A stretch of DNA of 64,000 bases from Fodinibius salinus. Its GTDB lineage: Bacteria; Bacteroidota; Rhodothermia; Balneolales; Balneolaceae. Below the pieces are notes generated by a model. That model did no database searches, was not told where the DNA came from, and was given only the letters and a program-made list of their open reading frames with translations. Where the stretch lies: the NCBI RefSeq assembly GCF_008124865.1, contig NZ_VNHY01000001.1, forward strand, positions 620,001 through 684,000, given 5' to 3'. Each line of letters begins with the position of its first letter. The stretch's first letter is position 1. Of this stretch, positions 38,884-55,362 are shown one piece after another. A program made the position numbers and the translations under genes.

Positions 38884-40941
38884 TTATTTTGTGGAGTATA
38901 ACCAAGCCTCAGTATTTTCCTCCTCCTGTATTCTTGTAAGAGCCTCTTTAGCTTTCTGGAGATCATCAAATTGATCATAGGAGACAAGGAATAACTCTTC
39001 GTCAGGCTTTTCAAAAATCATCGCATTATAACCTTTCGAGTTAATACTATCCTTGAAAATACTGGCATTTTCCATCTGAGAAAAAGATCCCGCGATAATA
39101 TAATGTGTTTGCGATGATACCACCTCTTGTGTTTGCTGTGTAACAGTGGTATCCGTCTCCACTCCTTGAGTATCTGTGGTGTCAGCATCTATTTGCTGTT
39201 TGTTATCCACTATTTGATTTTCTTGCTCTTGGTTTAATGAGTCTTCTTTAGATTCATTCGACACCTTCTCTTCTTCATTGTTTCCATCAACTGCAGCACC
39301 AAGGTTCAATGGTACTTCCTGGGGTTGCACTTCAGGGTCCTCAACAGTCGGGGATTCTTCCCTATTCTCTTCCTGCTGATCCATTTCTTGCTCTTCCTCG
39401 TTCTGGTCAGCAGATGTATCAACAGAGTCTTCTTTCTGTTCAATCTTCATTTCCTCTTTCTGTGACTTTTCTTCTTCCATTTCCGGCTCGGGAGGAGAAC
39501 TATCTGTTGTATCATCCTGCCGTTCTGACTCATCAAGATCTTCAAAATCATTTTCTGCATCAGACTCAAGAGCTTTTTCGCTTTCCTTAATTTCGTCACG
39601 CATACGGTTGCGCTCGTCACGGAGAGTCTCATACATGGTATTAAATTCATCCTTATCCATGCGTTGGGGAATACGCGGTTCCAAAGAAGCTTTGAGCAAG
39701 ATAACAAGTTCCCGAGCTTGGGTATCCTTTGAATTATATCCAAACAGATAACGCAGCCCAAAAAACCATGGTGGAAGATCTTTAAGAATAGGAACGCCCC
39801 GTCGCACTTCACTTTTTTCGGTACTATACAATCCAGCTATAACCGTAGTTTCTCCGTCCAATAACAGCGACTGAGTTTCAGCTTCCTGTTTGTTAATAAT
39901 AGTACTTACCGGATCTGGCTGAGCCGTTGAACGCTCGGCACTAATATCCAGATGAATAAAAGTAGTATCTTGTTGCTTAATTACATTGGGTGTTACCTCA
40001 AGAATTGTACCCACACTAAAGAATTCTTCTACTACATTACCGGCAATATCACGCTGCTTAATGGAAAAGTCCTGCCCTACCTGAATACGTCCGTCTTCTC
40101 CATCCTGTACTTTGACAGTAGGCGATGCTAAAATTTCACCAAGATTATCAGCTTCAAATGCACTGAACAAAGCCTGCACTTCAATACCTGAGCTCCCTAT
40201 TTCTCCAAAATTAACAAGAGAGTTAAATACGTTTTGAGATACACTCTGAGCTCCTTTTGAGTTTACCTGTACAAATGGACCATTTGCATTAAACTGAGAA
40301 TTCGGAACTTGCGGAGGGCCTTGTTGTCCACCTCCACCACCTCCACTTTGGCCGCCTCCGCCGCCTTGTCCACCACCGCCACCACCGACAACGGCGTTAG
40401 GTACATTCTCCGAAATAGTGGACCAGTCAACCCCAATTTCTTGCAGTGCCCGACGATTACCTTCAAAAAATACGGCATTGATGCGAACCTCATAGGTATC
40501 GGTAGTTGCAAGAACTTCTCCTTCTTCGCCACTGCTACCAGATGTTGATGTTTGTGGTGTCCCTTTTTCTTCTTGTTGAGATGCGATAGTCACTATTTCG
40601 TAAATATCTTTATCTTCCTTAAGCACCAAATCATTGGCACGCAGAATAAGCTTTAATGCATCAAACCAGTGCATAGCCGGTACGGAGATACCAATATTAC
40701 CCTCTGTACCAGATTTATCGAGCACAATTTTATCACGAAAATTTTGGGCAAAATCATTTATTACATCAACTGCTCGCTTAAATGATGTAGTACGATCAAA
40801 GGTAACAACCTCCTCAGGATTAGTATATTCTCTAAATTCAGAAGGTAGCTGATCTCTGTTTTGCCCCAGTACCCCTGCGGAGATAATGAAAAGAAAAAAG
40901 AATAAGAACGCTAAGAAATTACTGTATTTATAAAAACTCAT
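38884..40941 (-). CDS. Secretin (PilQ/GspD-like) with C-terminal SPOR domain
   Basis: The outer-membrane channel of a type IV pilus/type II secretion-like machine. A signal peptide (ending about residue 27) precedes an N-terminal STN-like domain; after a glycine-rich stretch (about 186-208) comes the secretin core (about 240-425) with the ETTVIAGLYSTEKSEVRRGVPILKDLP motif region (ends given only). A long acidic Glu/Gln-rich linker (about 450-605) ends in a SPOR-type domain (612-685: THYIIAGSFSQMENA), a peptidoglycan-binding module. I chose the ATG at 40941, one base after the upstream stop; an in-frame ATG at 40968 would overlap that gene. Confidence 0.85.
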   Translation of the reverse strand: MSFYKYSNFLAFLFFFLFIISAGVLGQNRDQLPSEFREYTNPEEVVTFDRTTSFKRAVDVINDFAQNFRDKIVLDKSGTEGNIGISVPAMHWFDALKLILRANDLVLKEDKDIYEIVTIASQQEEKGTPQTSTSGSSGEEGEVLATTDTYEVRINAVFFEGNRRALQEIGVDWSTISENVPNAVVGGGGGGQGGGGGQSGGGGGGQQGPPQVPNSQFNANGPFVQVNSKGAQSVSQNVFNSLVNFGEIGSSGIEVQALFSAFEADNLGEILASPTVKVQDGEDGRIQVGQDFSIKQRDIAGNVVEEFFSVGTILEVTPNVIKQQDTTFIHLDISAERSTAQPDPVSTIINKQEAETQSLLLDGETTVIAGLYSTEKSEVRRGVPILKDLPPWFFGLRYLFGYNSKDTQARELVILLKASLEPRIPQRMDKDEFNTMYETLRDERNRMRDEIKESEKALESDAENDFEDLDESERQDDTTDSSPPEPEMEEEKSQKEEMKIEQKEDSVDTSADQNEEEQEMDQQEENREESPTVEDPEVQPQEVPLNLGAAVDGNNEEEKVSNESKEDSLNQEQENQIVDNKQQIDADTTDTQGVETDTTVTQQTQEVVSSQTHYIIAGSFSQMENASIFKDSINSKGYNAMIFEKPDEELFLVSYDQFDDLQKAKEALTRIQEEENTEAWLYSTK

Positions 40942-40942
40942 A

Positions 40943-41818
40943 TCAATTACCGCTTTGTTTTTCATCATCTTTATTAATCTGCAGAGTCACCTGCTCAACT
41001 ATACCACCCTTATTGAGGTTAAAAGTTGCCGTTCCTTCATTAACATCAATGGATGTGAGAGTACCTAAATAAACTTCTTCGCCTTTAGATAATTTTTTCA
41101 TAACACCGTTTTGGTCAAGCACAAAGACCTGATCACCGCTAATAGCCAATAATTTACTTTGTTCAATGTTAACCAAGTTGTTTTTGTTGCCCTTTACTGA
41201 CCGAATTAACGGGAAAAACGGATTGTAAACTGATCCAAGTAAATTGTTTTCAATCGCCAAGTTCGGCTCACCCAATAGTTTAACCCGGTCATAAAAACTA
41301 CTAATCTTAAAATTAAAGTTAACCTTTCCGTATGACTCTAATTCATTTATAGGGTTAATACTAATGCCGGTAATTTTATTTAACGGCTTACTTAACTCAA
41401 GTTGCCGAATAAAATTAACAAAATTGCGGTAATATCCTTGTCCTGAGATACTCATATTCATTACCCCATACTGGCCATGGGTGGTAGAATCATCAAAACT
41501 AAACGTAAAATCAGTATAGGCTGATCCTACACTTACGGAATTTAAAAAATCATACACAATATCTTCATTACTGTCACCATACAGTGCTTTATTATAATTG
41601 TTGAAAAAGGATTTTGCCTTTTCAAATTGCTTCTGCAATGCTGGAAAAGCATCAGCAATCTGTTGCTTTTTGTCAAGCTCCTGTTGGGTCTCTTCCACCT
41701 TTTCTTCCAACTCCTCTATTTTAGGCAGCTGATAAAAATAAATATAGCTCCAGCCTGCCCCAATAAAAGCAATAAGGACAATCAGTAAAATAAGTGTATT
41801 TCGAACACCGTACGACAT
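40943..41818 (-). CDS. PilO-like inner-membrane protein with PilP-like tail
   Basis: One N-terminal membrane helix (about 8-29) is followed by a coiled coil (about 32-70) and a PilO/GspM-like ferredoxin-fold region (QYGVMNMSISGQGYYRNFVNFI). The C-terminal part (about 210-285) KLLAISGDQVFVLDQNGVMKKLSKGEEVYLGTLTSIDV (ends given) has the beta-rich pattern of a PilP/GspC periplasmic domain. So one protein may combine alignment-complex parts that are two genes in Proteobacteria. It lies between pilM-pilN fusion and secretin, at one base from the secretin start. Confidence 0.75.
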   Translation of the reverse strand: MSYGVRNTLILLIVLIAFIGAGWSYIYFYQLPKIEELEEKVEETQQELDKKQQIADAFPALQKQFEKAKSFFNNYNKALYGDSNEDIVYDFLNSVSVGSAYTDFTFSFDDSTTHGQYGVMNMSISGQGYYRNFVNFIRQLELSKPLNKITGISINPINELESYGKVNFNFKISSFYDRVKLLGEPNLAIENNLLGSVYNPFFPLIRSVKGNKNNLVNIEQSKLLAISGDQVFVLDQNGVMKKLSKGEEVYLGTLTSIDVNEGTATFNLNKGGIVEQVTLQINKDDEKQSGN

Positions 41819-41840
41819 AAATGCTGTCTATATTAAAATA

Positions 41841-43529
41841 TTAATTTTCACTTTCTATCAATTCTTTCACTTCTTTAGGGGTAGATGGTGAATATATTGA
41901 ATCTGACGGAGCAAAAGAACTTATCAATATCGAAAAACTGTATACATCTTGCTCGCGCAATGTCTCATTATTTACATTCATCAGCGTAGCCTCATCAAAA
42001 ATATTGACAATTCTAGTTATACGTTCTCTATATAGACTATATCCTTGGATAAAGGCCCCACCTGAAGATTCCTCGGCAAATGATGTAATCCAAGTATTAG
42101 AGATATCCTCCAATCCTTCATTAACAATCTGCAGCTTCTGTGACCACTCTTGGCTACCTTGGGTCAACGTATCTAACATTACCAACTTTCCTTTCAAAGT
42201 GGCTAGATCCTGTTCCATCTGTTTTGACCGATCAACAATAGGATTTAGCTCTTCAATCCTATCATTCATCTCAGTAAGATCATCAGACAGAGATTCAATC
42301 TGTTCTACATTTTGCGTATAAAAATAATTAAATGTAATGGGCATCAAGAAGATCAAAAACAAAATAAGCATACCGTGCCACTGCAGCTTGAAAATCTTTT
42401 GTCGGTCAGCAACATATTGTGGCAACAGTGATATATCAGGAAAATCCTCTTCATATACCCCGCTTGCAGCAAATGCGGAACCAATAGCAGTCGTAAAGAA
42501 AGGTATTGTAGAAGGATCCACATTTTCAGACTCATAAAAAGAGTCCTTAAAAGTAAGATTTTCTACCGGGATGTCCGGGAAATTTTCACTAAAAAAGTCA
42601 ACGGGTTCTTCCCCTCTGGGATTATTTGCCAAAATAATCCGGTCCAAGCTTGGAACTTCTCCCGTATCAAGCTGGAATAAAATTTTACTGAATACAGTAT
42701 TCAGAAATGAATCTTGGTTTGTCCCTTCATTGATAATTGGAGAAACCAGCCATACCTCTTCCCCCTGCATAAAAACAACACGACAACGTTTTTCACTAAA
42801 CTGGATAATCCCTGTTACTTCATCGGGGTCCAATTCATAGTTAACACGTACAAGACCAACCAAGCTAATTTCATCAGGGACTACACTATTGACAGCAATT
42901 TTACCGCTGTAAAGCTCCCTTACATTATTTATCAGCTGTAACGTTTCGGATTCATTATCAATAGAGGCTAGCAAAAGAGAACCATCTTCACGAACTTCAT
43001 ACGAATACTGATCAGAAGATTTGGGTTCTCCGTAAATAGAAGCCAGCTTTTCTTCCAGATCTTCAACAAGATCCTTTTCCTTGACTTCATTAAAATCAGT
43101 ATCTCTAATAATCTGAAAAATCGTGTTACCAGACGGTACATTTAATCCCAAATGTACCTTTTTCTGGTTAAAACCGGATAAAATATCATACATCAACAAT
43201 TCATTGGACTGAGGAGTATCTGCCTCATCAACCATATCGGTTGTATCCTCATCCACGGTCCCAAAATCTTCGAGATCTATTTCCTCTTCATCCTCTTCCT
43301 CATCTTCTTCATCCAGCCCAAATATGGAATCAGCTTCAGACTCAGCCTCATCGAAGCTTCCTTCTTCACTAACCGCTGCCGATTCGGTTGATCCGGCTCC
43401 AATCTTTTCAACCAGAGAAAATTGATCAAGTTTGATTAGTTTTAGCGAACTACCACTTGCGCGAACCCGAGCTACACGAATGGTTTCGCCTTCGATCGCT
43501 AAGCCTATGTAATCCTTTTTTCCAAACAT
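41841..43529 (-). CDS. PilM-PilN fusion protein
   Basis: The N-terminal part begins KKDYIGLAIEGETIRVARV, like the actin-fold PilM, which in Proteobacteria is a separate cytoplasmic protein. An acidic, low-complexity insertion (about 54-105, rich in Glu and Asp) interrupts the domain, which continues to about residue 380. A single membrane helix (about 384-404) then leads to a coiled coil and a PilN-like periplasmic domain (about 406-555). Membrane topology fits: cytoplasmic PilM, periplasmic PilN. It is 22 bases from the PilO-like gene on the same strand and so probably in one operon with secretin. Confidence 0.8.
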   Translation of the reverse strand: MFGKKDYIGLAIEGETIRVARVRASGSSLKLIKLDQFSLVEKIGAGSTESAAVSEEGSFDEAESEADSIFGLDEEDEEEDEEEIDLEDFGTVDEDTTDMVDEADTPQSNELLMYDILSGFNQKKVHLGLNVPSGNTIFQIIRDTDFNEVKEKDLVEDLEEKLASIYGEPKSSDQYSYEVREDGSLLLASIDNESETLQLINNVRELYSGKIAVNSVVPDEISLVGLVRVNYELDPDEVTGIIQFSEKRCRVVFMQGEEVWLVSPIINEGTNQDSFLNTVFSKILFQLDTGEVPSLDRIILANNPRGEEPVDFFSENFPDIPVENLTFKDSFYESENVDPSTIPFFTTAIGSAFAASGVYEEDFPDISLLPQYVADRQKIFKLQWHGMLILFLIFLMPITFNYFYTQNVEQIESLSDDLTEMNDRIEELNPIVDRSKQMEQDLATLKGKLVMLDTLTQGSQEWSQKLQIVNEGLEDISNTWITSFAEESSGGAFIQGYSLYRERITRIVNIFDEATLMNVNNETLREQDVYSFSILISSFAPSDSIYSPSTPKEVKELIESEN

Positions 43530-43547
43530 TCGCTAACGGTATCGGTA

Positions 43548-44801
43548 TTAATATTCTGTTTCAGCTATCAGTTGCTTAACACGCTTTTTATTATTGGCAT
43601 TATTAATAGCCACTTCCTTCGAAATTTTCCCTTCTGTATAAAGGCGCTTAAGATCCTGTTCCATTGTATTCATACCCTTTTTACTGCCCTCCATCAACAT
43701 CTGGTAAATTTCACCAATGTTATTATTACGGATAGCAGCCTTTACAGAACTGGTGACTATCAGCACCTCTTTTGCTAAGATACGTCTTCCGTCAAGACTG
43801 GGGACCAATTTTTGACTGATTACACAAGTTAAAACATCTGCGAGACGCGCACGTACACGATTTTGTTCTTTTACTGGCACCTCACCCAATATACGTTCTA
43901 TGCTTTCCATCGCAGAGCTGGTGTGCAGCGTTCCAAAAGTCTTGTGCCCCGAGTCAGTCACTTCAAGTGCTGTCATGATTGTTTCAGGATCGCGAAGCTC
44001 ACCAACAACAATGATATCGGGATCTTGGCGTAGTGCCTGTATAGCCCCATCTTTAAATGATTTCACATCCCGACCCACTTCACGATGTCGAATGACTGAT
44101 TTCTTGGGTTTATGTACAAGCTCAACCGGAGAAGCAATAATAACTACATGGGCATTCACTGTCCTGTTATTGGCATCAATAACAGTATCCAGGGTTGATG
44201 ATTTTCCTGAACCGGTAATACCCGTTACAAGTGTAAGGCCATACTTTAAATATTTCAGGCTTAGCGCTTTAGCAACTTCCGGATGTAAATTTAAATCTTT
44301 AAAAGGGCGAATCTCATTATCGATCTTTCGCATATTTAAAGCCAGATGCTCCATATCAAAATACATATCGGCACGAAATCGCTTAGCTGCCGATATATCA
44401 TTTGTAGCATCACTAATAGAATAAGAGAAGTCTAGATTGCCCTCTTCCAGTAACCGTTCACGTTGAGAAGGCAAAATAAGATTATGCAACAAGAAATTTG
44501 TTTCAGTAAGCGTAAATTCCGGAGCATTTTCGTCGGGCGATTTTTCACCGTGAATACGGTACCATACTTTCTCGTCGCAGCCCGGCCCTCCTATATCTAT
44601 GTCTGAAGCCTCATTGTCATCCATTTTATACAACAGGTCATCAACCACTTCTTGAAGCTCATTACGGACTGACTCTGACTGGCCTTCTATGAGTTCACCA
44701 ATATTCCGGTGCCGTTCAACTCCTTTGGAGCTGCTCGGTAATTGTTTCGCCAGCGGCGTAACAATTTCTTTAACTCTATTCTTTTTTACCCCTACTTCCA
44801 T
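43548..44801 (-). CDS. pilT: PilT-like type IV pilus retraction ATPase
   Basis: A hexameric secretion ATPase. Walker A is GITGSGKS (194-201), the Walker B region is DPDIIVVGELRDPETI, and GHKTFGTLHTSSAMESIERI is the His-box typical of PilT. An extended N-terminal region (about 1-95) precedes the PAS-like N-domain. PilT proteins drive pilus retraction; PilB-type extension ATPase is encoded separately upstream. It precedes the pilM-pilN fusion by 18 bases. Confidence 0.88.
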   Translation of the reverse strand: MEVGVKKNRVKEIVTPLAKQLPSSSKGVERHRNIGELIEGQSESVRNELQEVVDDLLYKMDDNEASDIDIGGPGCDEKVWYRIHGEKSPDENAPEFTLTETNFLLHNLILPSQRERLLEEGNLDFSYSISDATNDISAAKRFRADMYFDMEHLALNMRKIDNEIRPFKDLNLHPEVAKALSLKYLKYGLTLVTGITGSGKSSTLDTVIDANNRTVNAHVVIIASPVELVHKPKKSVIRHREVGRDVKSFKDGAIQALRQDPDIIVVGELRDPETIMTALEVTDSGHKTFGTLHTSSAMESIERILGEVPVKEQNRVRARLADVLTCVISQKLVPSLDGRRILAKEVLIVTSSVKAAIRNNNIGEIYQMLMEGSKKGMNTMEQDLKRLYTEGKISKEVAINNANNKKRVKQLIAETEY

Positions 44802-45018
44802 AAAAGTGTGTTACAACTGTATCAATAAAATAATTTAACTAAAGACTTTATGACCTTGTGTTACAAGCATTATAAGTAATTAATTGCTATTAATCGACAC
44901 CTATATAGTCTTTATACCATCCCCAAAAACATTAATTATTATTAATATTTCAAAAATAACTTTTTTTAATCGGCTTTCTAAGATTCAAATACTTTATATA
45001 GCCGGATAAATAGCTATT

Positions 45019-45516
45019 TCACCAGTTTGTATCATCTAACAGGCGCTTTTTAAGCTGCAAAAGCTGGATATTCATGTTATTGATCTTATTCTGTTGAATC
45101 TCAATAATATTCCGTGTAAATATATTAAACAGTTTTTCCGGTTTCTTTCGGAAAAAATTTAGAGCATCATAACGCTCAAACTTCAACAGTTTAGTATCTC
45201 CTTCTGCAACAACTTTAGCCATTCTGTTATTTTTGCTAAAAAGAAAGGACTCTCCTAAAAAATCTCCCTCTTCGAGCTTGGCCAACTGTATATTGTCTTT
45301 CCAGATTGTTACTTCTCCATCTGCGATTAGAAAAGCAGAATTTACATATTCCGACTCATTTACGACAATATCATCCTGGACAAACTTCTCAAGTTTACCC
45401 AGTTTCAAAAACTCCATAATATCTTCATAATGGAAATTTCGAAGCAACATAGGCGGCTCTTTTAAAAATTGCCGAATATATTCCGGCGCTGCTTCTTTTT
45501 GATCTTCGTTAGACAT
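45019..45516 (-). CDS. Stand-alone cyclic-nucleotide-binding domain protein
   Basis: A 165-residue CRP-like sensor domain with no DNA-binding helix-turn-helix. The phosphate-binding cassette reads GESFLFSKNNRMAKVVA (88-104), keeping the glutamate and arginine that contact cyclic nucleotide in CRP. A C-terminal helix (about 138-160) is rich in Asn, Gln and Leu and could dimerise or dock. It lies between pilB and pilT, so it probably links a cyclic nucleotide signal to pilus function; this is inference. Flanking gaps of 217 and 86 bases leave operon structure uncertain. Confidence 0.85.
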   Translation of the reverse strand: MSNEDQKEAAPEYIRQFLKEPPMLLRNFHYEDIMEFLKLGKLEKFVQDDIVVNESEYVNSAFLIADGEVTIWKDNIQLAKLEEGDFLGESFLFSKNNRMAKVVAEGDTKLLKFERYDALNFFRKKPEKLFNIFTRNIIEIQQNKINNMNIQLLQLKKRLLDDTNW

Positions 45517-45602
45517 AACTTTTCTCCAAATTTATATCTGTGTTAAACCCCGTAAATTGATCAACAAGCTATACTATTAATAAATTTACAAATTAAATAC
45601 CA

Positions 45603-47381
45603 TCAATCTTCTATTGTAATTGCTGCAATTTCTTCTATGGTCGTCAATCCGTTCTTAATACGTTCTCTCCCCGATGCTCTAAGGCTCAACATCCCTTGGT
45701 CTATAGCATGCTGTTTAATAGCAACCTCATCAATTTCATCACCGGATTCAAGAATCATCTTACGAATTTCCTTATCAAAATATAGGGCTTCCATAATAGC
45801 TGTACGCCCGCTATAACCATTGGAACATTCATCACAACCAACAGCCCGATAAAAGGTATTATTTTCAATTTCTTCTTCTTCAAAACCAATACTTTTTGCC
45901 GCTTGAGGATGAGGCTCGAATTCTTCTTTACATTCTTCACACAGCGTACGCACTAGCCGCTGAGCCATAATCAAATTCACGGCATTAGCAATTAAAAACG
46001 TTTCAACACCCATCTTATATAGTCGTGAAATAGCACTGGGTGCATCGTTGGTGTGCAGCGTCGAGAAAGTCAAGTGACCGGTATTTGCCAGTTTGATGGC
46101 AATTTCTGCTGTTTTAAGATCCCGAATCTCACCAACCAATACAATATCGGGGTCATGACGCAAAATACCGCGCATAGCATTATCAAATGTCATGTGATCA
46201 CTAATTTTTAACTGCCTGGCCCCTTCAATCATATACTCCACCGGTTCCTCGACGGTTAGTACGTTTACCGAAGGATCAATTACATAGTACAAGGCGGCAA
46301 CAAGCGTCGTTGACTTACCACTGCCGGTAGGACCAGTGACAATAACAATGCCCGAAGGTTTTTCAATCGCCTTCACAAAGTCATCTTTTGCTTTTTCCTG
46401 GAGCCCCAGAACATTGAGATCGGTAATCACTTCCCGGTCATCAAGGATACGGATTACAATAGACTCAAACTTGCGATCAAACTGTTCTCCCACCATCGGC
46501 ATAATAGATACTCGATACCGAATATTATGGCCATCAACTGCACGCTGGATAAATCCATCCTGGGATGCGTCACGCTCAAAACGATCCACATCACGGGTTT
46601 TATCTTTCACAACGGCCGATATCGCCTCCGGCTTTACATTATTTTGCTGGTGCCAAAGTTCCAATTTCCCGTCAATACGAAAACGGATATCCGTAGAAGC
46701 ACTACCACAGGGTACAATATGAATATCACTAACTCCCTTGCGGACTCCCTCAACCAAGAAACCCTCAACGAGAGAATTGAGCATACTCTGGTTGATCTCG
46801 GCATCTATCTCCTCTTCATCAATTTCTTCAGCTTCATCTTCTTCCTGAAGATCCGGCTCTTCGTGCTCAATCTCTTCGAGCAGATCTAAGAACTCATTCT
46901 TTTGTTCATAAACCTGTGTAAGAATCTGCTCTACTAGCTCATAGCGGCAATAGACAATCTCGTGCTGGGTAAAATTTAGTTTACCTACAATCTTGGAGAG
47001 CGTAGGATCAGAGGGATCAGCCGCTGCAATAGTTAAAGAAGTCCGGTTTTTCTGCAGAGGAACTGCTTTTTGATGTACCAGTTCATCTACAACTTCTGAA
47101 GGGAGATCATCAATATTAGATTTTATCTGGGCCAGAATTTCATCTTCAATTGTTTCTTGGCCTTCCAACACCTCTTCAAAAGCATAAATCGATGCAATCT
47201 CTTTCATGACCCGATTACGATCTATACCGAGATCCTGATAAAGAATTTGCCCCAACCGCCTGTTAGAAGAGTCAGGTTCTTGACGCAGGATAGCAAGTGC
47301 TTCCTGGAGTTGATCTTGTGTAATAACCTCTCGGCTTACCAAAAGATCACCAATATGTCTACGTGTATTTACTTGTGACAT
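45603..47381 (-). CDS. pilB: PilB/GspE-like assembly ATPase
   Basis: Powers pilus extension. An N-terminal GspE-N domain (about 5-150) is followed by an unusual acidic linker (about 168-197), then the core ATPase: Walker A GPTGSGKST (350-358), Walker B region DIVLVGEIRD (412-421), GHLTFSTLHTNDAPSAI and the zinc-binding cysteines 481, 484, 516 and 519. The tetracysteine group favours PilB or GspE over PilT. Length 592 is normal. It precedes the CNB gene. Confidence 0.9.
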   Translation of the reverse strand: MSQVNTRRHIGDLLVSREVITQDQLQEALAILRQEPDSSNRRLGQILYQDLGIDRNRVMKEIASIYAFEEVLEGQETIEDEILAQIKSNIDDLPSEVVDELVHQKAVPLQKNRTSLTIAAADPSDPTLSKIVGKLNFTQHEIVYCRYELVEQILTQVYEQKNEFLDLLEEIEHEEPDLQEEDEAEEIDEEEIDAEINQSMLNSLVEGFLVEGVRKGVSDIHIVPCGSASTDIRFRIDGKLELWHQQNNVKPEAISAVVKDKTRDVDRFERDASQDGFIQRAVDGHNIRYRVSIMPMVGEQFDRKFESIVIRILDDREVITDLNVLGLQEKAKDDFVKAIEKPSGIVIVTGPTGSGKSTTLVAALYYVIDPSVNVLTVEEPVEYMIEGARQLKISDHMTFDNAMRGILRHDPDIVLVGEIRDLKTAEIAIKLANTGHLTFSTLHTNDAPSAISRLYKMGVETFLIANAVNLIMAQRLVRTLCEECKEEFEPHPQAAKSIGFEEEEIENNTFYRAVGCDECSNGYSGRTAIMEALYFDKEIRKMILESGDEIDEVAIKQHAIDQGMLSLRASGRERIKNGLTTIEEIAAITIED

Positions 47382-47598
47382 TTATCGATTTATGCTACAC
47401 AGTTCTTCGTTACAGTGATTGTTTAATATACATGTTACAAACTGGAATGTAAGAAAAACTTAATCATCCATTTGCTAATAATTGAAACTATTCTTAACAA
47501 ATAGCCATGATAACGCATTCCGGCAAATCGCATTTATTACTGAAACCAAACACTAATTGTACAACTACTTAGTTTTATAATCTCTTTTCACCTATATA

Positions 47599-48939
47599 TT
47601 ACATTCCGGTTTTGGGTTGAATCAAGGCTGACTCGGCAGATACAATAGTAATGGCAATAAGGGCTATACATATAAATATGTTAACACCCAAGCTAATCAT
47701 ATCTACCAGCGTATCCATCTTATAGGTGGTTTGCGTTTCGTAATACTGAGCCAGCTGGTTGGCATTTTCTTTAAGTGCACCAGACTCAGCTCCCAACTTA
47801 AACCTGCTAATGGCCGTATCCGTAAATACACCAGTTGCTTCAAGAGATTCAATAAGTCCTGCTCCCTCTTTGAGCATCATTTTTATAGCCACTTCCTTAA
47901 TCTGTTTCTCCATATATTTATTACGGCATGCCTCGGCTGCTACTTTGATCACTTCAATATTTTGCCCTGATCCACTGTACAAAGTATAGAAAACACGAGA
48001 AAAAATTTCGATACTTGTCTTATGCATTAAATCGCCTATAACCGGCACATTAATAATGTGTTTATCCCGCCAAAGCTGTCCTTCGGGTACCTGAAACAGG
48101 TAATACCATGCCGCAGCTATAGGGGTAATAAATGACAGCGTCAGTATTATCCAGTTTGACTGCAGCCAATAGCTGAGTTCAAGCGTTGCAGCGGTCATAG
48201 GTGGCAGTTCAATATTCATCTCTACGAAAAGTTCAGCTGTAGCTGGAAAAATATAACCAACATAAAACAGGATTACCCCAATAGTTGCCAGTACGGTAAT
48301 GGATGGCATCAATAACGAACGACGCAAGTTTTTCTTAAACTCGGCGTCGCGCTCCATAAATTTGGCGGTACTTTCAAACACCTGCGCCATATTACCACTC
48401 GTGGAAGCAACACTAAGCATATATGAGGCAAATTCTCCAAATACATCCTCGTGTTTGCCGTAAACCTCGTCCCCTTCTTTACCATCCTTTAAATCTTTTT
48501 GGATAGTGCTGATAACCTCACGCATCCGCTTATTCTGGGTATCTTCATGAAGAAGCTCTAGGATCTCATCAAAACTAAGCTGCTGATTAAGCAGGTCAGC
48601 ACAAAGACGAATAAACGTTACAACCTCTTGCTGTGGCACGCCCCCCTTCCAGTTGAACCACTTTTTCTTAATGCTAATAACCTTATAGTCCAGCTTGACA
48701 AGTGCGCGTTCTACTTCTTCCTTAGAATACGCTTCTTGCTCTCCGGTAACTGGTTCTTTCGCTCCGCGCTGTACTTTATACTTAAAGGTCTTTTTCTCAT
48801 CAATGGATTTTACCTTAAATCCATTTTTGCGTGACAGTTTTTCGACACGATTTTTTGCTTCTTTTTTACTGGTTGCCTCAAACTCTGTTTTGATTTTCTT
48901 GCCCTGGGCCGAAACTGCTCTAAGTCTAAACTCTGCCAT
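47599..48939 (-). CDS. pilC: PilC/GspF-like inner-membrane platform protein
   Basis: Type II secretion F-family membrane protein that anchors the assembly platform. Two F-domains flank membrane helices (about 210-235 SITVLATIGVILFYVGYIF, about 260-285, and the C-terminal SLGVNIFICIALIAITIVS). The N-terminus has an extra roughly 90-residue, lysine-rich section made of two similar beta-alpha units (EFRLRAVSAQGKKIK and TFKYKVQRGAKEPV begin each), which ordinary PilC proteins show as one. It is the first gene of the leftward locus; a 217-base gap separates it from pilB. Confidence 0.85.
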   Translation of the reverse strand: MAEFRLRAVSAQGKKIKTEFEATSKKEAKNRVEKLSRKNGFKVKSIDEKKTFKYKVQRGAKEPVTGEQEAYSKEEVERALVKLDYKVISIKKKWFNWKGGVPQQEVVTFIRLCADLLNQQLSFDEILELLHEDTQNKRMREVISTIQKDLKDGKEGDEVYGKHEDVFGEFASYMLSVASTSGNMAQVFESTAKFMERDAEFKKNLRRSLLMPSITVLATIGVILFYVGYIFPATAELFVEMNIELPPMTAATLELSYWLQSNWIILTLSFITPIAAAWYYLFQVPEGQLWRDKHIINVPVIGDLMHKTSIEIFSRVFYTLYSGSGQNIEVIKVAAEACRNKYMEKQIKEVAIKMMLKEGAGLIESLEATGVFTDTAISRFKLGAESGALKENANQLAQYYETQTTYKMDTLVDMISLGVNIFICIALIAITIVSAESALIQPKTGM

Positions 48940-49081
48940 AACAAAAGAATTTATATAATATATTCTGCAGGAAGTTAGGTGCTATATAGGATAAAATAAC
49001 TTTGTCAGAAAAAAAAGTATAACAGAAGCTCGTCAAAATTGATACTGCTTTTTCAAGATTTCACAATTGAAATGTTGTTTC

Positions 49082-49115
49082 CTACCCTCCGCAGCGGAGC
49101 TACAGAGAGATAAAG
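49082..49115. repeat. Short interspersed repeat, copy A
   Basis: Contains CCGCAGCGGAGCTAC then an AGAGAGATAAAG tail. It matches, with a few changes and a short indel, the copy at 53540-53575, and loosely that at 53611-53645. It lies in the 282-base gap upstream of pilC, which otherwise shows only AT-rich DNA. Confidence 0.55.
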
Positions 49116-49221
49116 CATATTATCCTAAATACTAACGTTTGGGATAAGCTAAAAAAATCCGGTAGATTTCGACCAAATATTTAGCTACCCTTTTAAAAAG
49201 CTTAATTAACGATAATCAATT

Positions 49222-49740
49222 TTGATATATATAGAACTACTAATATATGTACTGCTTATCCTGCTCTTGTTATCCAATGATAAGGTTAAAACTCTGATCT
49301 CAAACACTAAGATTCTAACAAAGACAGCTGGCCTAATTGCTGTTGCAGGTATGATTTTTGCTCAACTTTACAACACACCTGATTACACGTACCCATTTGT
49401 GCAATGGGATATGTATTCCGGAAGCTACCCTGCACCCGCCTATTTAGAATATCGAATTGAATTAACAAACGACAATAACAGGCATTACCCGATTGACGAA
49501 GTTGCCTTTACTTCGCAAAAAGGCTTTATGGTAAAATTGGAAGACCTTATGGGCGGAGCAAAAAAACAGAATAATGCGCTCACCCAAACAGTGGAGGCGT
49601 TAATTAATATTTATGAATACAACCATCCAGATGATACTGTTAAACAATTTATGATTATCAGCAAGAGGGTTCAGCCCTCACAAGCTAAAGAAGATTTTTC
49701 TGTGGAGGCGACTAAAATATTTGAATATCAGGGTAACTGA
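49222..49740 (+). CDS. Small membrane-anchored protein paired with the HTTM-like gene
   Basis: Two hydrophobic helices (about 2-18 and 37-55) precede a soluble region (about 60-172) with no motif I recognise. The start is TTG with no upstream ATG. Its stop codon TGA shares its last base with the ATG of the following HTTM-like gene, so the two are translationally coupled and probably act together. They are rightward within an otherwise leftward pilus region. Function unknown. Confidence 0.6.
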   Translation: MIYIELLIYVLLILLLLSNDKVKTLISNTKILTKTAGLIAVAGMIFAQLYNTPDYTYPFVQWDMYSGSYPAPAYLEYRIELTNDNNRHYPIDEVAFTSQKGFMVKLEDLMGGAKKQNNALTQTVEALINIYEYNHPDDTVKQFMIISKRVQPSQAKEDFSVEATKIFEYQGN

Positions 49741-50642
49741 TGACTTATTATATTTTTGACAATGCTGATGGGCGTGATCTTGGGATTCTGCGTTTTACTG
49801 TTTTTGCTATTTGGCTGGTAATTGTTTTTTGTACTCCCTTAACTAATTATGCTTTACTTCCGCCAGAAATATTTGAGCCCTGGGGCGTCTTCAATATTAT
49901 CTTCTCTGATCCAACAAGTCTAGTTACCCAGGTTACACTCTCTCACACTTTTCTTTTATCCCTTAAAATAATAATAATTATCGGATGTCTGCTTTGTATG
50001 GCAGGCATTCGTCCTTTTCGGTGGATAGCAATTCCTACTGTTGTATTACTATTGCTAGCAGAAGGTATTGTAAAGGGGTTTAACGGATATATAAATCATG
50101 CGGAGCTAATTCCCCTTTATACAGCGGCTATTGTCTCGGTTTCTCCGTCCTCTGACCAATTTACTATATTGTACAATCCGATTCAAAACAAGCTTAAAAC
50201 CAATTATACTTTTCCAATTTTTGTGGCTGCCTTGGTTTTTCTTCTATCATATTCGTTTGTAGGAATAAACCGGTTTATGTCTGTTGGTCTGGAGATCTTT
50301 CAGACTGACGCACTGCGCAATTATCTATTTGTAAATAGCTTTGAGTATTCAAAATACGGGTTTGACCTAGGTTTACTGATAGCTAAAAATGATTGGCTGT
50401 TAACACTTTCTAATATCGGTTTCTTTGTTCTAACTGTTTTGGAGTGCCTTTCTCCGTTAGTTCTGATCAACAGGCATTTTTGTTATGGATGGGTAACGAT
50501 TATGATATCATTTCATATCCTATCATTGCTGACGATGAATATCTTTTTCTGGGCAAATATAATGCTTATCATTCTGCTATTCATAATCATTCCCTGTCTT
50601 GATGGTGATAAAGCATTCAAGACAAAATTCTTATTCCATTAA
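49740..50642 (+). CDS. HTTM / gamma-carboxylase-like membrane protein
   Basis: A polytopic membrane protein of about 300 residues with six or more hydrophobic segments. The opening DNADGRDLGILRFTVFAIW and the later NIGFFVLTVLECLSPLVL and FFWANIMLIILLFI resemble the HTTM/DoxX-like group related to vitamin K-dependent gamma-carboxylases. I do not see evidence that it carboxylates anything. It overlaps the stop of the preceding gene by one base. Confidence 0.6.
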   Translation: MTYYIFDNADGRDLGILRFTVFAIWLVIVFCTPLTNYALLPPEIFEPWGVFNIIFSDPTSLVTQVTLSHTFLLSLKIIIIIGCLLCMAGIRPFRWIAIPTVVLLLLAEGIVKGFNGYINHAELIPLYTAAIVSVSPSSDQFTILYNPIQNKLKTNYTFPIFVAALVFLLSYSFVGINRFMSVGLEIFQTDALRNYLFVNSFEYSKYGFDLGLLIAKNDWLLTLSNIGFFVLTVLECLSPLVLINRHFCYGWVTIMISFHILSLLTMNIFFWANIMLIILLFIIIPCLDGDKAFKTKFLFH

Positions 50643-50956
50643 TATTATTTTCATCATTTACAGATATCGCAATATCCACATTTTGAGACTCCCCTCCCGA
50701 ATTCTCGGGGGTCGGAATGACAATCGTTGTGTTATAGCAAGAACAAGCAGAGCGACATCATTCTAAAAGGAAGTCGAAGGACCTCCCTAGTGCGATTCGC
50801 ATAGGATCTAAGGGAAAAACTCTTCTGCGCTTGCGGGCTGTTTCATGGGGATAGATTCGACTACCGCGCATCTGGCATTTTAAATCATCCTAAATAGCGT
50901 TACTGCTAGCTGCTCACTGCATTGAGCCATTCAACTTCCAGTATCAAAATTAACAC
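50643..50956. other. Intergenic region with decayed repeat material
   Basis: A 314-base gap between convergent genes. It contains CTCCCGAATTCTCGGGGGTCGGAATGACA (only its start CTCCCGAATT and end GGAATGACA matter), then AGTCGAAGGACCTCCC, wording that resembles the rearranged GATCCTTCGAC/GGATGACA intergenic sequences found in many bacteria. A TACTGCTAGCTGCTCACTGC fragment lies at 50901-50920. I see no open frame here. Confidence 0.45.
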
Positions 50957-52471
50957 TTACTGTTTTTCTGCTTCCGATTGTTTGGAATGCTTATTTTCTT
51001 GCTCCATCCCGCTGTAGTCAAAACCGATAATGCCCTGCATCCAGTAACGGGGTAATAGTCTATCCCGTTGTGTCTTTTTTAAATAGTAACTGTCCAATTC
51101 ATGTCGATCAATTTGATTATTTAACGGCCAATAGCTTACGCTTGCAATAGATCCCAAAATTACGAACACAGTAATCCATTGATATACCGTTGGAGTACTT
51201 TTTGCGTCATATTCTTTTGGGTTTTCCGCAAAAAACACGCCCAGCGATGCCCCTACAACCAATACCAAAAGCATTTGACTAATTGGAGTAACCAAAATTC
51301 TGGTAAAAAAACCATGTACCAGAGCGGCTACCATTGACCACAAAAGCCCCAACTTTAACCATTTAGCCCGCAGCATATAATTTTGGTCGTTAATATTTTT
51401 GACAAGCTGCTTTCCAAAACTTTTTAAGCCATTTATAAAAAGTACAAACAACATTATAGCAACAGGGATGCCCCATTCATAGGCAAACTGTAAAAACCAG
51501 TTGTGCGGCGAACTTGCCATATTGGTTGGCATGTACACGGCATAATGCATAGGACCATAGCCTATAAACGGTGCATTAAAAATTTCTGGTAGCATTTGAC
51601 CCCAGATAACTAGCCTATTACTGCTGTTAGCACGCATAACCGTTTGCTCGGTACCTCCTGCGAATAATTCAAAAAATAAAAAATACCCCAGTAGCGTACA
51701 CACTACCAGTGACCCACAATAGCTAAAAAACTGTCTTTTTTCTTCCACAAAAAATGCCCAGATAACCACAGTGCCAACCACAACCCCAAGCATCACGCCG
51801 CGCGCCCCCGATGCAAAAACGAGCATGCCCCATCCTACTATAACGGCCGCCAGTCCCCATCTCAACCACTGTTTGGCGGAATAACGCCACGCATACCAAC
51901 CCATACTAACCAATATGGGTATCGACCACGTTTGGGTATGGTTAAAGGTACGAATGCTTGAAAAACCAAATAAATCAATGGTGTGGTTATTGCTTGGCCA
52001 CAACTTAAATTCGCCCAACTGGTACAATACATACGTGCCTGCTACCCGAGCCAAATAACATACCACAAATCCTATAACGCCAACAAGCACATAGCCCAAT
52101 GCTTTAGAAGGATTTTCATAGGCTACGGCACCAATAGCAAAGATAGCAGTTAGCAGCAATAGATAATGCCCGTAATCCAGCAGGGCCCAATCTAAAAAGG
52201 TAGCCCTCATGCTTGCCACCAAGCCGAGAAGTATAATGCCTCCCAGTGCTATTCTGGTACTGCTTGTAAATTCATTAATGAAAGCAGTTAACCGGCACAG
52301 ATTGCCGGGTAACAGCGAAATACCATTAACCAGCAAAAGCAGCCCCACCTGAAGCAGCCGCCGGTTATTAAGCGTATCATTAAGCCGGTAAGGTTCGTAC
52401 TGCAAGGCCGGCAACAAAATTACATAGCAAATTAATGCCAGCAGTAATACGTCATCGAGTGACCATTTCAT
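50957..52471 (-). CDS. O-antigen ligase / pilin oligosaccharyltransferase-like membrane protein
   Basis: A polytopic membrane protein of the Wzy_C/O-antigen ligase family. About ten hydrophobic segments are visible, and the catalytic periplasmic loop carries FIGYGPMHYAVYM and SPHNWFLQFAYEWG (about 360-385), the conserved H-containing signature. Family members attach oligosaccharides to lipid A, or to pilin (TfpO/PglL). It lies immediately downstream of the pilin gene on the same strand, behind a terminator. I chose the ATG at 52471 over the TTG at 52483. Confidence 0.8.
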   Translation of the reverse strand: MKWSLDDVLLLALICYVILLPALQYEPYRLNDTLNNRRLLQVGLLLLVNGISLLPGNLCRLTAFINEFTSSTRIALGGIILLGLVASMRATFLDWALLDYGHYLLLLTAIFAIGAVAYENPSKALGYVLVGVIGFVVCYLARVAGTYVLYQLGEFKLWPSNNHTIDLFGFSSIRTFNHTQTWSIPILVSMGWYAWRYSAKQWLRWGLAAVIVGWGMLVFASGARGVMLGVVVGTVVIWAFFVEEKRQFFSYCGSLVVCTLLGYFLFFELFAGGTEQTVMRANSSNRLVIWGQMLPEIFNAPFIGYGPMHYAVYMPTNMASSPHNWFLQFAYEWGIPVAIMLFVLFINGLKSFGKQLVKNINDQNYMLRAKWLKLGLLWSMVAALVHGFFTRILVTPISQMLLVLVVGASLGVFFAENPKEYDAKSTPTVYQWITVFVILGSIASVSYWPLNNQIDRHELDSYYLKKTQRDRLLPRYWMQGIIGFDYSGMEQENKHSKQSEAEKQ

Positions 52472-52503
52472 ACCATAGTTCAAGTTCTTAAAACTAATAA
52501 AAA

Positions 52504-52531
52504 AGGCCTCTCCGAGTAATCGAAGAGACCT
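52504..52531 (-). terminator. Terminator / attenuator between pilin and ligase genes
   Basis: AGGCCTCTCCGA and TCGAAGAGACCT form a 12-base stem (two G-U pairs on the minus strand) with a four-base loop, followed by a T run. It lies 26 bases after the pilin stop and 33 before the ligase start. It would allow a strong pilin transcript with partial readthrough into the ligase gene. Confidence 0.85.
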
Positions 52532-52556
52532 AAAATATTACAGAAGTTATAACAAT

Positions 52557-53021
52557 TTATGAACTAGAGCTTGAGCATTCACTAGCTCCAGGTGCAGATG
52601 CACTTCCGTCTGCGGCATAATCACTTATTGCCGCATCGTCTGCACATACGGTAATTACAATATTCCCGCCGGCAGATGCAGGTTTCCCAGTTATGTCAAA
52701 GCTATTCTCACTGGTCGATGAGATGCTGTACGTTCCATTTTCATTAACACAATCAGTACCACTGATATCTCCTGTACAGCCTATGTCTCCGATACCAATC
52801 GCACTTCCATTCGTATTATCAAACGAGTTCGAACCGCCGCCCATCATGTCTGGCTTCATGTAGAAACCCTGAGCAGTTGACGCCATGCTGAGTAGGTCGT
52901 TGCGAACGGCATCGACATTAGCAGAATCAGCTGCACTACTAAATGTGTTAATCGCTACTACTGTAGCAATTCCCACAATAATCGTGACCAAAATTACAAG
53001 TAAGAGTTGTTGTTGTCCCAT
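52557..53021 (-). CDS. Atypical type IV pilin-like protein
   Basis: A 154-residue protein that begins MG then QQQLLLVILVTIIVGIATVV, a hydrophobic helix like the pilin N-terminal alpha-1. Unlike classic pilins it lacks Phe at +1 and Glu at +5 after a Gly, and the leader is just two residues. The globular part has four cysteines (82, 91, 126, 149) that could pair into two disulfides, and ends Cys149 followed by five Ser (150-154). It is near a complete set of pilus assembly genes and upstream of an oligosaccharyltransferase-like gene, so it is the probable major pilin. Confidence 0.7.
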   Translation of the reverse strand: MGQQQLLLVILVTIIVGIATVVAINTFSSAADSANVDAVRNDLLSMASTAQGFYMKPDMMGGGSNSFDNTNGSAIGIGDIGCTGDISGTDCVNENGTYSISSTSENSFDITGKPASAGGNIVITVCADDAAISDYAADGSASAPGASECSSSSS

Positions 53022-53645: not shown

Positions 53646-53931
53646 CAAAAATTTACAGTGGGAATTATTTCCATAGAATATTAGCGATATAATTCTTTAC
53701 AACTCTTCTACTTACTGTAGTCGAACTCTGATGTTATTTTTTAGAATATCATCATTAAACAACTGCACGGTCATTCTCAAAAGTATGTAATTACAGTTGA
53801 CAATACAGTATGTTACTGTTAATCTTATGGAAACATCTTTTAACAAAGGATGGTGTTGGTTTTTATTTACCAATATATATTCTATTATAGAAAAAATTAT
53901 TAGACCTTTTACCCCCAACCATTTTCACATT

Positions 53932-55362
53932 ATGAAGAATCGCTACTTTCTATTACTCATATTCGCTGTTGCGTTAATTACACAGGCTTGTAGTTCTGAT
54001 AGCGGAACTATTGTAGCCGGACAGGTTATCGAGGCCGGTACCGGCAATGCTGTTGACGGTGCTATTGTTGAAATAACTGAGCCCGTTGATTTGCAGGAAT
54101 CAACAACCACTGATTCTACCGGTAACTTTTCATTCAGCGTTAATGTGGATGAAACCGCAACAGTTACACTTGAGGTAAGTAAGCAAAATTTTGAAACCGC
54201 TACCCGAAATTTTAAACTCTCAAGCGGCAATGATGTTGATGATTTGGTTATTGAGTTGACAAGCAGCACTGCCGGCGATGGCGGAGATGACAGCGATGAC
54301 ACGATAGGTGGAGATTCCGGGCCTCCTGCCGCCCTTGAACTTACCAGTATCTCTAGTAGCAACATAGCGGTAAAAGGAACGGGAGGAGATGTTTCTGCCA
54401 AATTTACCTTTTCTGTGACAGATAGTGCTGGCCGGCCGGTAGACCAAGGGTATAATATCGATTTCTCTATTATAACTGGACCGGGCGGTGGCGAATATGT
54501 ACAGCCGGCTACTGCAACAACAAGTTCACAGGGTACCGTCTCCTCGGTCATAAATGCCGGTACACAGTCCGGGGTTATTAAACTACAAGCTTCCGCCGGC
54601 TCCAATATCGCTTCTACCCCGGTGCTTGTTGCCGTAGGTAATGGGTTTCCACAAGGCGATAACTTCCGTATAGCCCCTACAAACATAAACTTTGAAGCAT
54701 GGGGACTTTTAGCAAGCTCGCAAAATTCTGTTAAATCGAATTATGTAGCTGTCAGTTTGGGGGACAATCGCAATAACCCCGTCTTGCCCGGTACGGCTGT
54801 TGACTTTACAACTACCGCGGGTAACATTACTGCCTCAGCGGTAACAGATGAAAAAGGAGTAGCCATTGCTGAACTGATACCCGATGGCAGCCGGCCAGGC
54901 GCTGCCAGCTCACCCATACCGGTACACCCCCGGGGCATCGGCTGGGCCACTGTAACAGCACGTACCGTTGCTGAAAATGATAATTATGTAACCGTAGAAA
55001 CGGATGTGCTATTTACGTCTTCGAGTAATATCAGTATAAACCTCTATGATCCGGGAACAACAACTCCTGCTACAATTAGTATTCCCAGCAATGGATCCCA
55101 ATCATTTGACTTAGTTATAGAGGATGTGAACGGCTATCCTATTCCTGCCGGTTCTGAAATGGAGGTTACCTCAAGTACGGGAACGTCTAATACTTTTGGC
55201 ACCCTCACCCAGGGGGATCACACCTCAGCTGGACAAGGTACCACCCGTTTTAGCTTTAGCGTTACTGACTCTGATGATCAAAATCCAACAGAACAGAATG
55301 CTTCGATAGATGTGACTATTACCTTCCCATCAGAAAATACAGCTACTCGTGGATTCCAATAA
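53932..55362 (+). CDS. Envelope lipoprotein with carboxypeptidase-regulatory-like and Ig-like domains
   Basis: The lipobox LITQACSS (Cys20) marks a lipoprotein. Residues about 25-110 resemble a carboxypeptidase-regulatory-like beta-sandwich (GQVIEAGTGNAVDGAIVEI), followed by a Ser/Asp/Gly-rich link and one or more Big_1/invasin-like Ig-type modules (AKFTFSVTDSAGRPVDQGYNIDF, LVIEDVNGYPIPAGSEMEV). I chose the ATG at 53932 because it starts the signal peptide; the open frame extends upstream to 53797 without such a signal. Stand-alone, rightward, with a strong terminator after it. Role: probably a surface-exposed structural or adhesive lipoprotein. Confidence 0.75.
   Translation: MKNRYFLLLIFAVALITQACSSDSGTIVAGQVIEAGTGNAVDGAIVEITEPVDLQESTTTDSTGNFSFSVNVDETATVTLEVSKQNFETATRNFKLSSGNDVDDLVIELTSSTAGDGGDDSDDTIGGDSGPPAALELTSISSSNIAVKGTGGDVSAKFTFSVTDSAGRPVDQGYNIDFSIITGPGGGEYVQPATATTSSQGTVSSVINAGTQSGVIKLQASAGSNIASTPVLVAVGNGFPQGDNFRIAPTNINFEAWGLLASSQNSVKSNYVAVSLGDNRNNPVLPGTAVDFTTTAGNITASAVTDEKGVAIAELIPDGSRPGAASSPIPVHPRGIGWATVTARTVAENDNYVTVETDVLFTSSSNISINLYDPGTTTPATISIPSNGSQSFDLVIEDVNGYPIPAGSEMEVTSSTGTSNTFGTLTQGDHTSAGQGTTRFSFSVTDSDDQNPTEQNASIDVTITFPSENTATRGFQ

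Follow-up and report, generated by a model that had tools for sequence, protein, structure and literature searches.

Can a type IV pilus be assembled without a prepilin peptidase, an enzyme described in the literature as an invariable part of type IV filament machineries (PMC4471445)? This question is raised by a pilus array of ~14 kb on the minus strand of the Fodinibius salinus genome, which runs from the pilin gene to the secretin gene at positions 38884-53021 of the window, the 64,000-nucleotide stretch of contig NZ_VNHY01000001.1 (positions 620,001 to 684,000) that we analyzed. We consider it quite probable that this locus belongs to a distinct clade of retractable type IV pili, whose predicted pilins would be born mature and would need no prepilin peptidase. 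The carriers of this clade are members of the Bacteroidota (Balneolota/Rhodothermota, Ignavibacteria and Kryptonia) and of related phyla.

Searches for a prepilin peptidase in the genome and the lineage

The sequence-only reading of this stretch had remarked that no pilD lies in the window, and our searches extended this absence to the entire genome and its lineage. The A24 prepilin peptidase profile PF01478 found no match at E<=10 in the window or in the whole genome (2.86 Mb in 9 contigs, 98.5% complete), and a control search with this profile was positive in 12 of 14 named genomes. A lineage-specific profile, for which 16 A24 proteins of the phylum and its relatives were used, detected the enzyme in four relatives, with E-values of 1e-44 to 1e-62, and yielded nothing credible in the window genome (G000) or in the other 54. 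Among the 245 genomes of the class, PF01478 exceeded its cut-off in 18 and PilC was present in 165. Of 394 genomes sampled across the phylum, 129 carry pilins beginning with the motif MGQQQ, the type encoded in the window; every one of the 129 is at least 90% complete, and in 114 of them, some assembled as a single contig, A24 over cut-off went undetected. The edge of the window as the reason for the missing pilD is rejected by these genome-wide and clade-wide searches.

N-terminus, fold and register of the major pilin

We identified the major pilin (52557..53021, minus strand), a leaderless protein starting MGQQQLLL, through its predicted structure and a family profile; it reads MGQQQLLLVILVTIIVGIATVVAINTF, and four codons ahead of its ATG there is an in-frame TAG. 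An upstream alternative start was considered and rejected, given the stop just before the ATG and the lack of any other start in 147 of the 151 distinct rows of a scan for GQQQ. In the same scan, whose 151 rows include a few spurious matches, the start was ATG or GTG at the MG in 148 rows and an upstream in-frame stop lay at a median of 3 codons. The scan of contigs used the pattern MGQQQLL; a second scan, anchored on pilC, was motif-free, although the pattern scan had supplied many of its loci, and pilins located solely by position upstream of pilC had the same start as those found by motif. The family, for which Pfam has no model, is present in 45 of 59 relatives, often with several major pilin copies adjoining pilC, and in the alignment Gly2 and Gln3-5 are invariant across the pilins. 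Exceptions are the products of the second pilin gene of loci L116 and L128, which begin MANKE and carry a Glu close to the N-terminus; in these, too, the second residue is small and a leader is lacking. Typical MGQQQ pilins were also seen on contigs labelled Chitinophagaceae, Mollicutes, Deltaproteobacteria and Patescibacteria (L109, L146, L161 and L167), which are probably mislabelled or mis-binned pieces of metagenome-assembled genomes.

An AlphaFold model of the pilin (predicted local distance difference test, pLDDT, 91) comprises a 54-residue helix and an antiparallel sheet. Foldseek alone gave only noise with this model, and re-alignment with VIA-align put pilins on top, with Thermus PilA4 (Z 9.3), PilV (9.1), PilE (8.4), PilX (8.0) and full-length PAK pilin (7.0) as the best matches and unrelated chains at Z ~4.4. 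In the register of the family profile, G17 and F27 of the pilin correspond to the canonical G14 and F24, an offset of 3; in the structural register, residue 4 of the model corresponds to residue 1 of PAK pilin, and the offset is likewise 3 for PilV, PilE and PilX. As both alignments give this offset, canonical mature residue 1 is Gln4 and no leader precedes it; position -1 is occupied by Gln3, not by Gly or Ala, and position 5 by Leu8, not by Glu. The pilin accordingly has no class III signal peptide with Gly or Ala at -1 and Glu5. The sequence-only reading had described the pilin simply as atypical; the leaderless state of the pilins, the most striking feature of the system, had escaped it.

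Minor pilins

Many relatives have, in the interval from pilB to pilT, three genes for minor pilins of I-, J- and K-like type, and one of these pilins weakly resembles PilV. The hydrophobic segment of these proteins starts within ~10 residues of the Met, i.e. they too are leaderless, and the K-type minors start with MG in 15 of 15 aligned sequences. The window locus itself is devoid of I/J/K genes. The K profile matches two copies elsewhere in the window genome, and at L206:5631-10732 (G000:C1, outside the window) we observed two complete tandem I-J-K triplets coding for six minor pilins, all leaderless. The canonical N-methyl prepilin profile (PF07963) found nothing in the whole genome at E<=10; together with the leaderless triplets, this means that every pilin found in the organism is leaderless. 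The triplets of L206 adjoin a gene for a 1622-residue repeat protein whose C-terminal domain resembles those of type IX secretion. We think it fairly likely that the major pilin and the three minor classes are jointly leaderless in a type IV pilus clade that builds its filaments from born-mature pilins, has given up the prepilin peptidase and is ancestral or early-derived in the Fibrobacteres-Chlorobi-Bacteroidetes (FCB) group.

A24 peptidases and a second filament machine

Where A24 is found, it appears to belong to another machine than the MGQQQ pilus. With a canonical-type PilC defined by an E-value below 1e-24, 20 genomes of the class carry one; A24 is present in 14 of these 20 as against 2 of the 145 in which the other type is the sole PilC (Fisher p 6e-14), and the 10 class genomes that combine an MGQQQ pilin with A24 all have a canonical-type PilC as well. 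When 83 PilC proteins were placed in a tree, those associated with MGQQQ pilins fell together on one side of a single branch, which is 3.95 long and has 100/100 support. In most of the A24 loci that we read, a prepilin of canonical type, with Glu5 and a charged leader (for example MKTSGRKFINDESGFSLTELLIVLAIIGIL), is encoded near or beside the peptidase, and none of these loci contains an MGQQQ pilin; in three A24 loci (L181, L184 and L190) the motif scan detected no prepilin of canonical type. The congeneric genome G009 has three type IV filament loci, two of the MGQQQ type (among L076, L077 and L078) and one canonical with A24, and offers a natural test case for peptidase independence.

Alternative explanations

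Several observations weigh against a pilus that dispenses with pilin processing throughout this clade. An A24 peptidase is present in 11 of 18 pilin-bearing genomes of the KSB1/Calditrichota/Marinimicrobia type, and the pilin carriers of these three groups may use it. Furthermore, PilA4, the best structural match of the pilin, aligns with an offset of 1 instead of 3; the invariance of Gly2 is also what would be expected of a cleavage-site Gly; and the positive charges that usually keep a pilin N-terminus inside are absent. Finally, a peptidase of an unrelated family would escape PF01478 and could still trim one or two residues. That such an enzyme removes Met-Gly or a few more residues nonetheless seems unlikely to us: the invariant Gly2 and Gln3-5 would suit a recognition site, but the Gly is equally explained by methionine aminopeptidase, there is hardly anything to remove, as canonical residue 1 is preceded by just three residues, the I-, J- and K-type minors have no cleavage motif in common, and the syntenic loci show no conserved extra protease-type gene.

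It is highly improbable that an A24 peptidase, divergent or unassembled, was merely missed, since the enzyme is likewise absent from the 114 of 129 genomes described above, the lineage-specific profile gives the same negative, and no Gly or Ala occupies the cleavage position in the register set by the profile and structural alignments; the assembly, with its 9 contigs and 98.5% completeness, is what speaks for it. The nature of the machine may also be questioned, in that the PilM-PilN fusion described below is similar to GspL, the I/J/K minors as a set are pseudopilin-like and PilC matches GspF as well in the profile search, all of which would fit a type II-like secretion system or an adhesive pseudopilus. 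We regard this as quite doubtful, however, given the PilT-type ATPase in nearly all syntenic loci, a secretin of PilQ-like type (TIGR02515 being its best match) and the frequent multiplication of major pilin copies next to pilC.

Proposed assembly of born-mature pilins

For the peptidase-free pilus that we favor, our best reading of the sequences is that the born-mature pilins would need at most the removal of the initiator Met. Sec would insert the pilins in an N-in orientation, and methionine aminopeptidase, an enzyme that works on a Met followed by Gly or Ala, would cut the Met before Gly2 to expose GQQQLLL at the cytoplasmic face. PilB and PilC, together with the PilM-N and PilO-P proteins, would push these subunits into a filament through PilQ, and PilT would retract it. 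In the core of the filament, a patch formed by Gln3-Gln5 might take the role of the usual contact between the N-terminal amine and Glu5. The pilin may be glycosylated by the ligase-like protein of the locus, and extension may be regulated by the cyclic-nucleotide-binding protein and the cyclic di-GMP (c-di-GMP) motif of PilB.

Organization of the locus and its alignment complex

Judged by sequence, the locus encodes a full motor set for assembly and retraction and has the parts that mark a type IV filament machine, namely PilB, PilC, PilT, PilQ and a PilM/PilN/PilO alignment complex. The sequence-only reading had placed PilC, PilB, a cyclic-nucleotide-binding protein, PilT, PilM-PilN, PilO, a secretin, a pilin and a ligase-like protein in this array, each of which we recovered in place, and its suggestion of a lineage-specific architecture holds, as the synteny comparison shows the gene order to be conserved across the class and the phylum. 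All of the following genes lie on the minus strand. The platform protein PilC (47599..48939) is of the 446-residue type and matches PF00482 at 5.5e-31. The extension ATPase PilB (45603..47381; PF00437 3.9e-102, TIGR02538 1.2e-131) bears an MshE-type c-di-GMP-binding motif at its N-terminus (NF053729 2.5e-8). The retraction ATPase PilT (43548..44801; TIGR01420 4.9e-94, PF00437 1.2e-32) scores 315 bits against TIGR01420, 4 bits short of the curated cut-off, and its Walker A/B and AIRN motifs are readable in the translation. Between these two ATPase genes is one for a cyclic-nucleotide-binding protein without a DNA-binding domain (45019..45516; PF00027 6.2e-11), which is conserved in the same interval in Balneolaceae and many relatives and points to possible second-messenger control of the pilus. 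The PilQ-type secretin of 694 residues (38884..40968) matches PF00263 over cut-off (2.8e-30); TIGR02515 is the best-matching secretin type at 1.6e-30, a score below that model's own cut-off, and the protein has a C-terminal SPOR domain (PF05036 7.7e-7) and a weak N-terminal STN/N0 match.

The sequence-only reading had held that four alignment proteins are fused into two. The PilM-PilN fusion stands, resting on the fold and a PilN profile, and so does PilO; the PilP-like tail of the latter is less certain. The fusion protein (41841..43529; 562 residues), assigned from its predicted structure and family profile, consists of an actin-like PilM fold, one transmembrane segment and a periplasmic PilN. 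The window protein itself has no Pfam match; residues 3-371 of its AlphaFold model (mean pLDDT 77.5) resemble solved PilM structures (5eou, Z 24.6; 2ych, Z 24.1), Foldseek gives a PilM match at E 1.1e-12, and solved GspL/EpsL chains are also among the fold matches. With the family profile, PilN of Myxococcus (3jc8) scores 2.3e-9, and PF05137 PilN is detected in 10 of 20 family members. The fusion itself is not unique, since in type II secretion GspL joins PilM and PilN parts in this way. A separate PilM elsewhere in the genome, as sought to check the fusion, was rejected, the sole PilM-like (PilM_2) matches being MreB and FtsA. In 3 of 20 relatives the SPOR domain sits on the PilM-N protein and not on the secretin. 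In the PilO protein (40943..41818; PF04350 1.4e-6), the PilO part spans approximately residues 1-185, and its family profile matches Myxococcus PilO of 3jc8 at 0.0021. The tail, approximately residues 186-291, is a domain conserved in 19 loci, with a consensus of roughly NPFYPLI, then DQxGxxxxLxxGDxVYLGxL, then LNKGGIxExVTL; no library profile matched it, nor did any solved structure in a profile search of the PDB. From its sequence pattern, it is plausible but unproved that this tail is a PilP/GspC homology region (HR) domain.

Between the pilin gene and pilC lies the gene for a protein of the O-antigen ligase/pilin oligosaccharyltransferase-like type (Wzy_C; 50957..52483, PF04932 3.5e-12), which occupies the same place in several relatives. 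Two plus-strand membrane-protein genes at 49222-50642 break the array between pilC and this ligase gene; in G009 (locus L076) the insertion is lacking and the two genes are only ~60 bp apart. A large protein with immunoglobulin-like (Ig-like) repeats, encoded at window 53797-55362 in divergent orientation next to the pilin, is a candidate adhesin, and similar Ig-like repeat proteins occur near the pilus loci L076, L079 and L087.

Relationship to known systems and implications

With the type IVa pilus (T4aP) of Pseudomonas, Myxococcus and Thermus, this machine shares homologues of PilB, PilT, PilC, PilM, PilN, PilO and PilQ and a major pilin with the long-helix lollipop fold. It differs in having no PilD, no class III signal peptide and no Glu5, and further in the fused PilM-PilN, the probable fusion of PilO and PilP, the C-terminal SPOR domain of the secretin and a separate clade of PilC. 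Because two features by which the literature defines the family, the class III signal peptide and the prepilin peptidase, are lacking, we describe the system as a variant rather than filing it as a T4aP. Type II secretion is similar in the GspL-type PilM-plus-PilN layout and the GspI/J/K-like minor set, whereas the present machine has PilT and lacks both a canonical GspG-type pseudopilin and GspO. The mannose-sensitive hemagglutinin (MSHA) pilus likewise has loci without a prepilin peptidase gene, but genomes with MSHA always carry one from another system (PMC6668835), while most genomes here have no peptidase at all and their pilins no leader.

The genome of Melioribacter roseus was reported to hold pilT, pilQ, pilB and pilC without pilA and pilD, a set that was called incomplete (PMC3534657); in contrast, a Melioribacteraceae genome (L160) has an MGQQQ pilin beside pilC. 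Beyond this remark on Melioribacter, we found no description of leaderless pilins, peptidase-free pili or the MGQQQ motif in a literature search that covered sources other than subscription journals and preprints. Since standard searches use class III signal peptides to find pilins, MGQQQ pilins are missed and their systems called incomplete, as happened for Melioribacter.

Thus, from these sequences, a large branch of Bacteroidota and its relatives appears to omit a step thought essential for type IV machines. If born-mature pilins do assemble, leader cleavage would not be mechanically required for building a pilus. The roles of the leader in topology and in membrane holding until the cut, of N-methylation and of Glu5 would then become testable by comparing two natural solutions, canonical and MGQQQ, which coexist in some genomes, such as G009.

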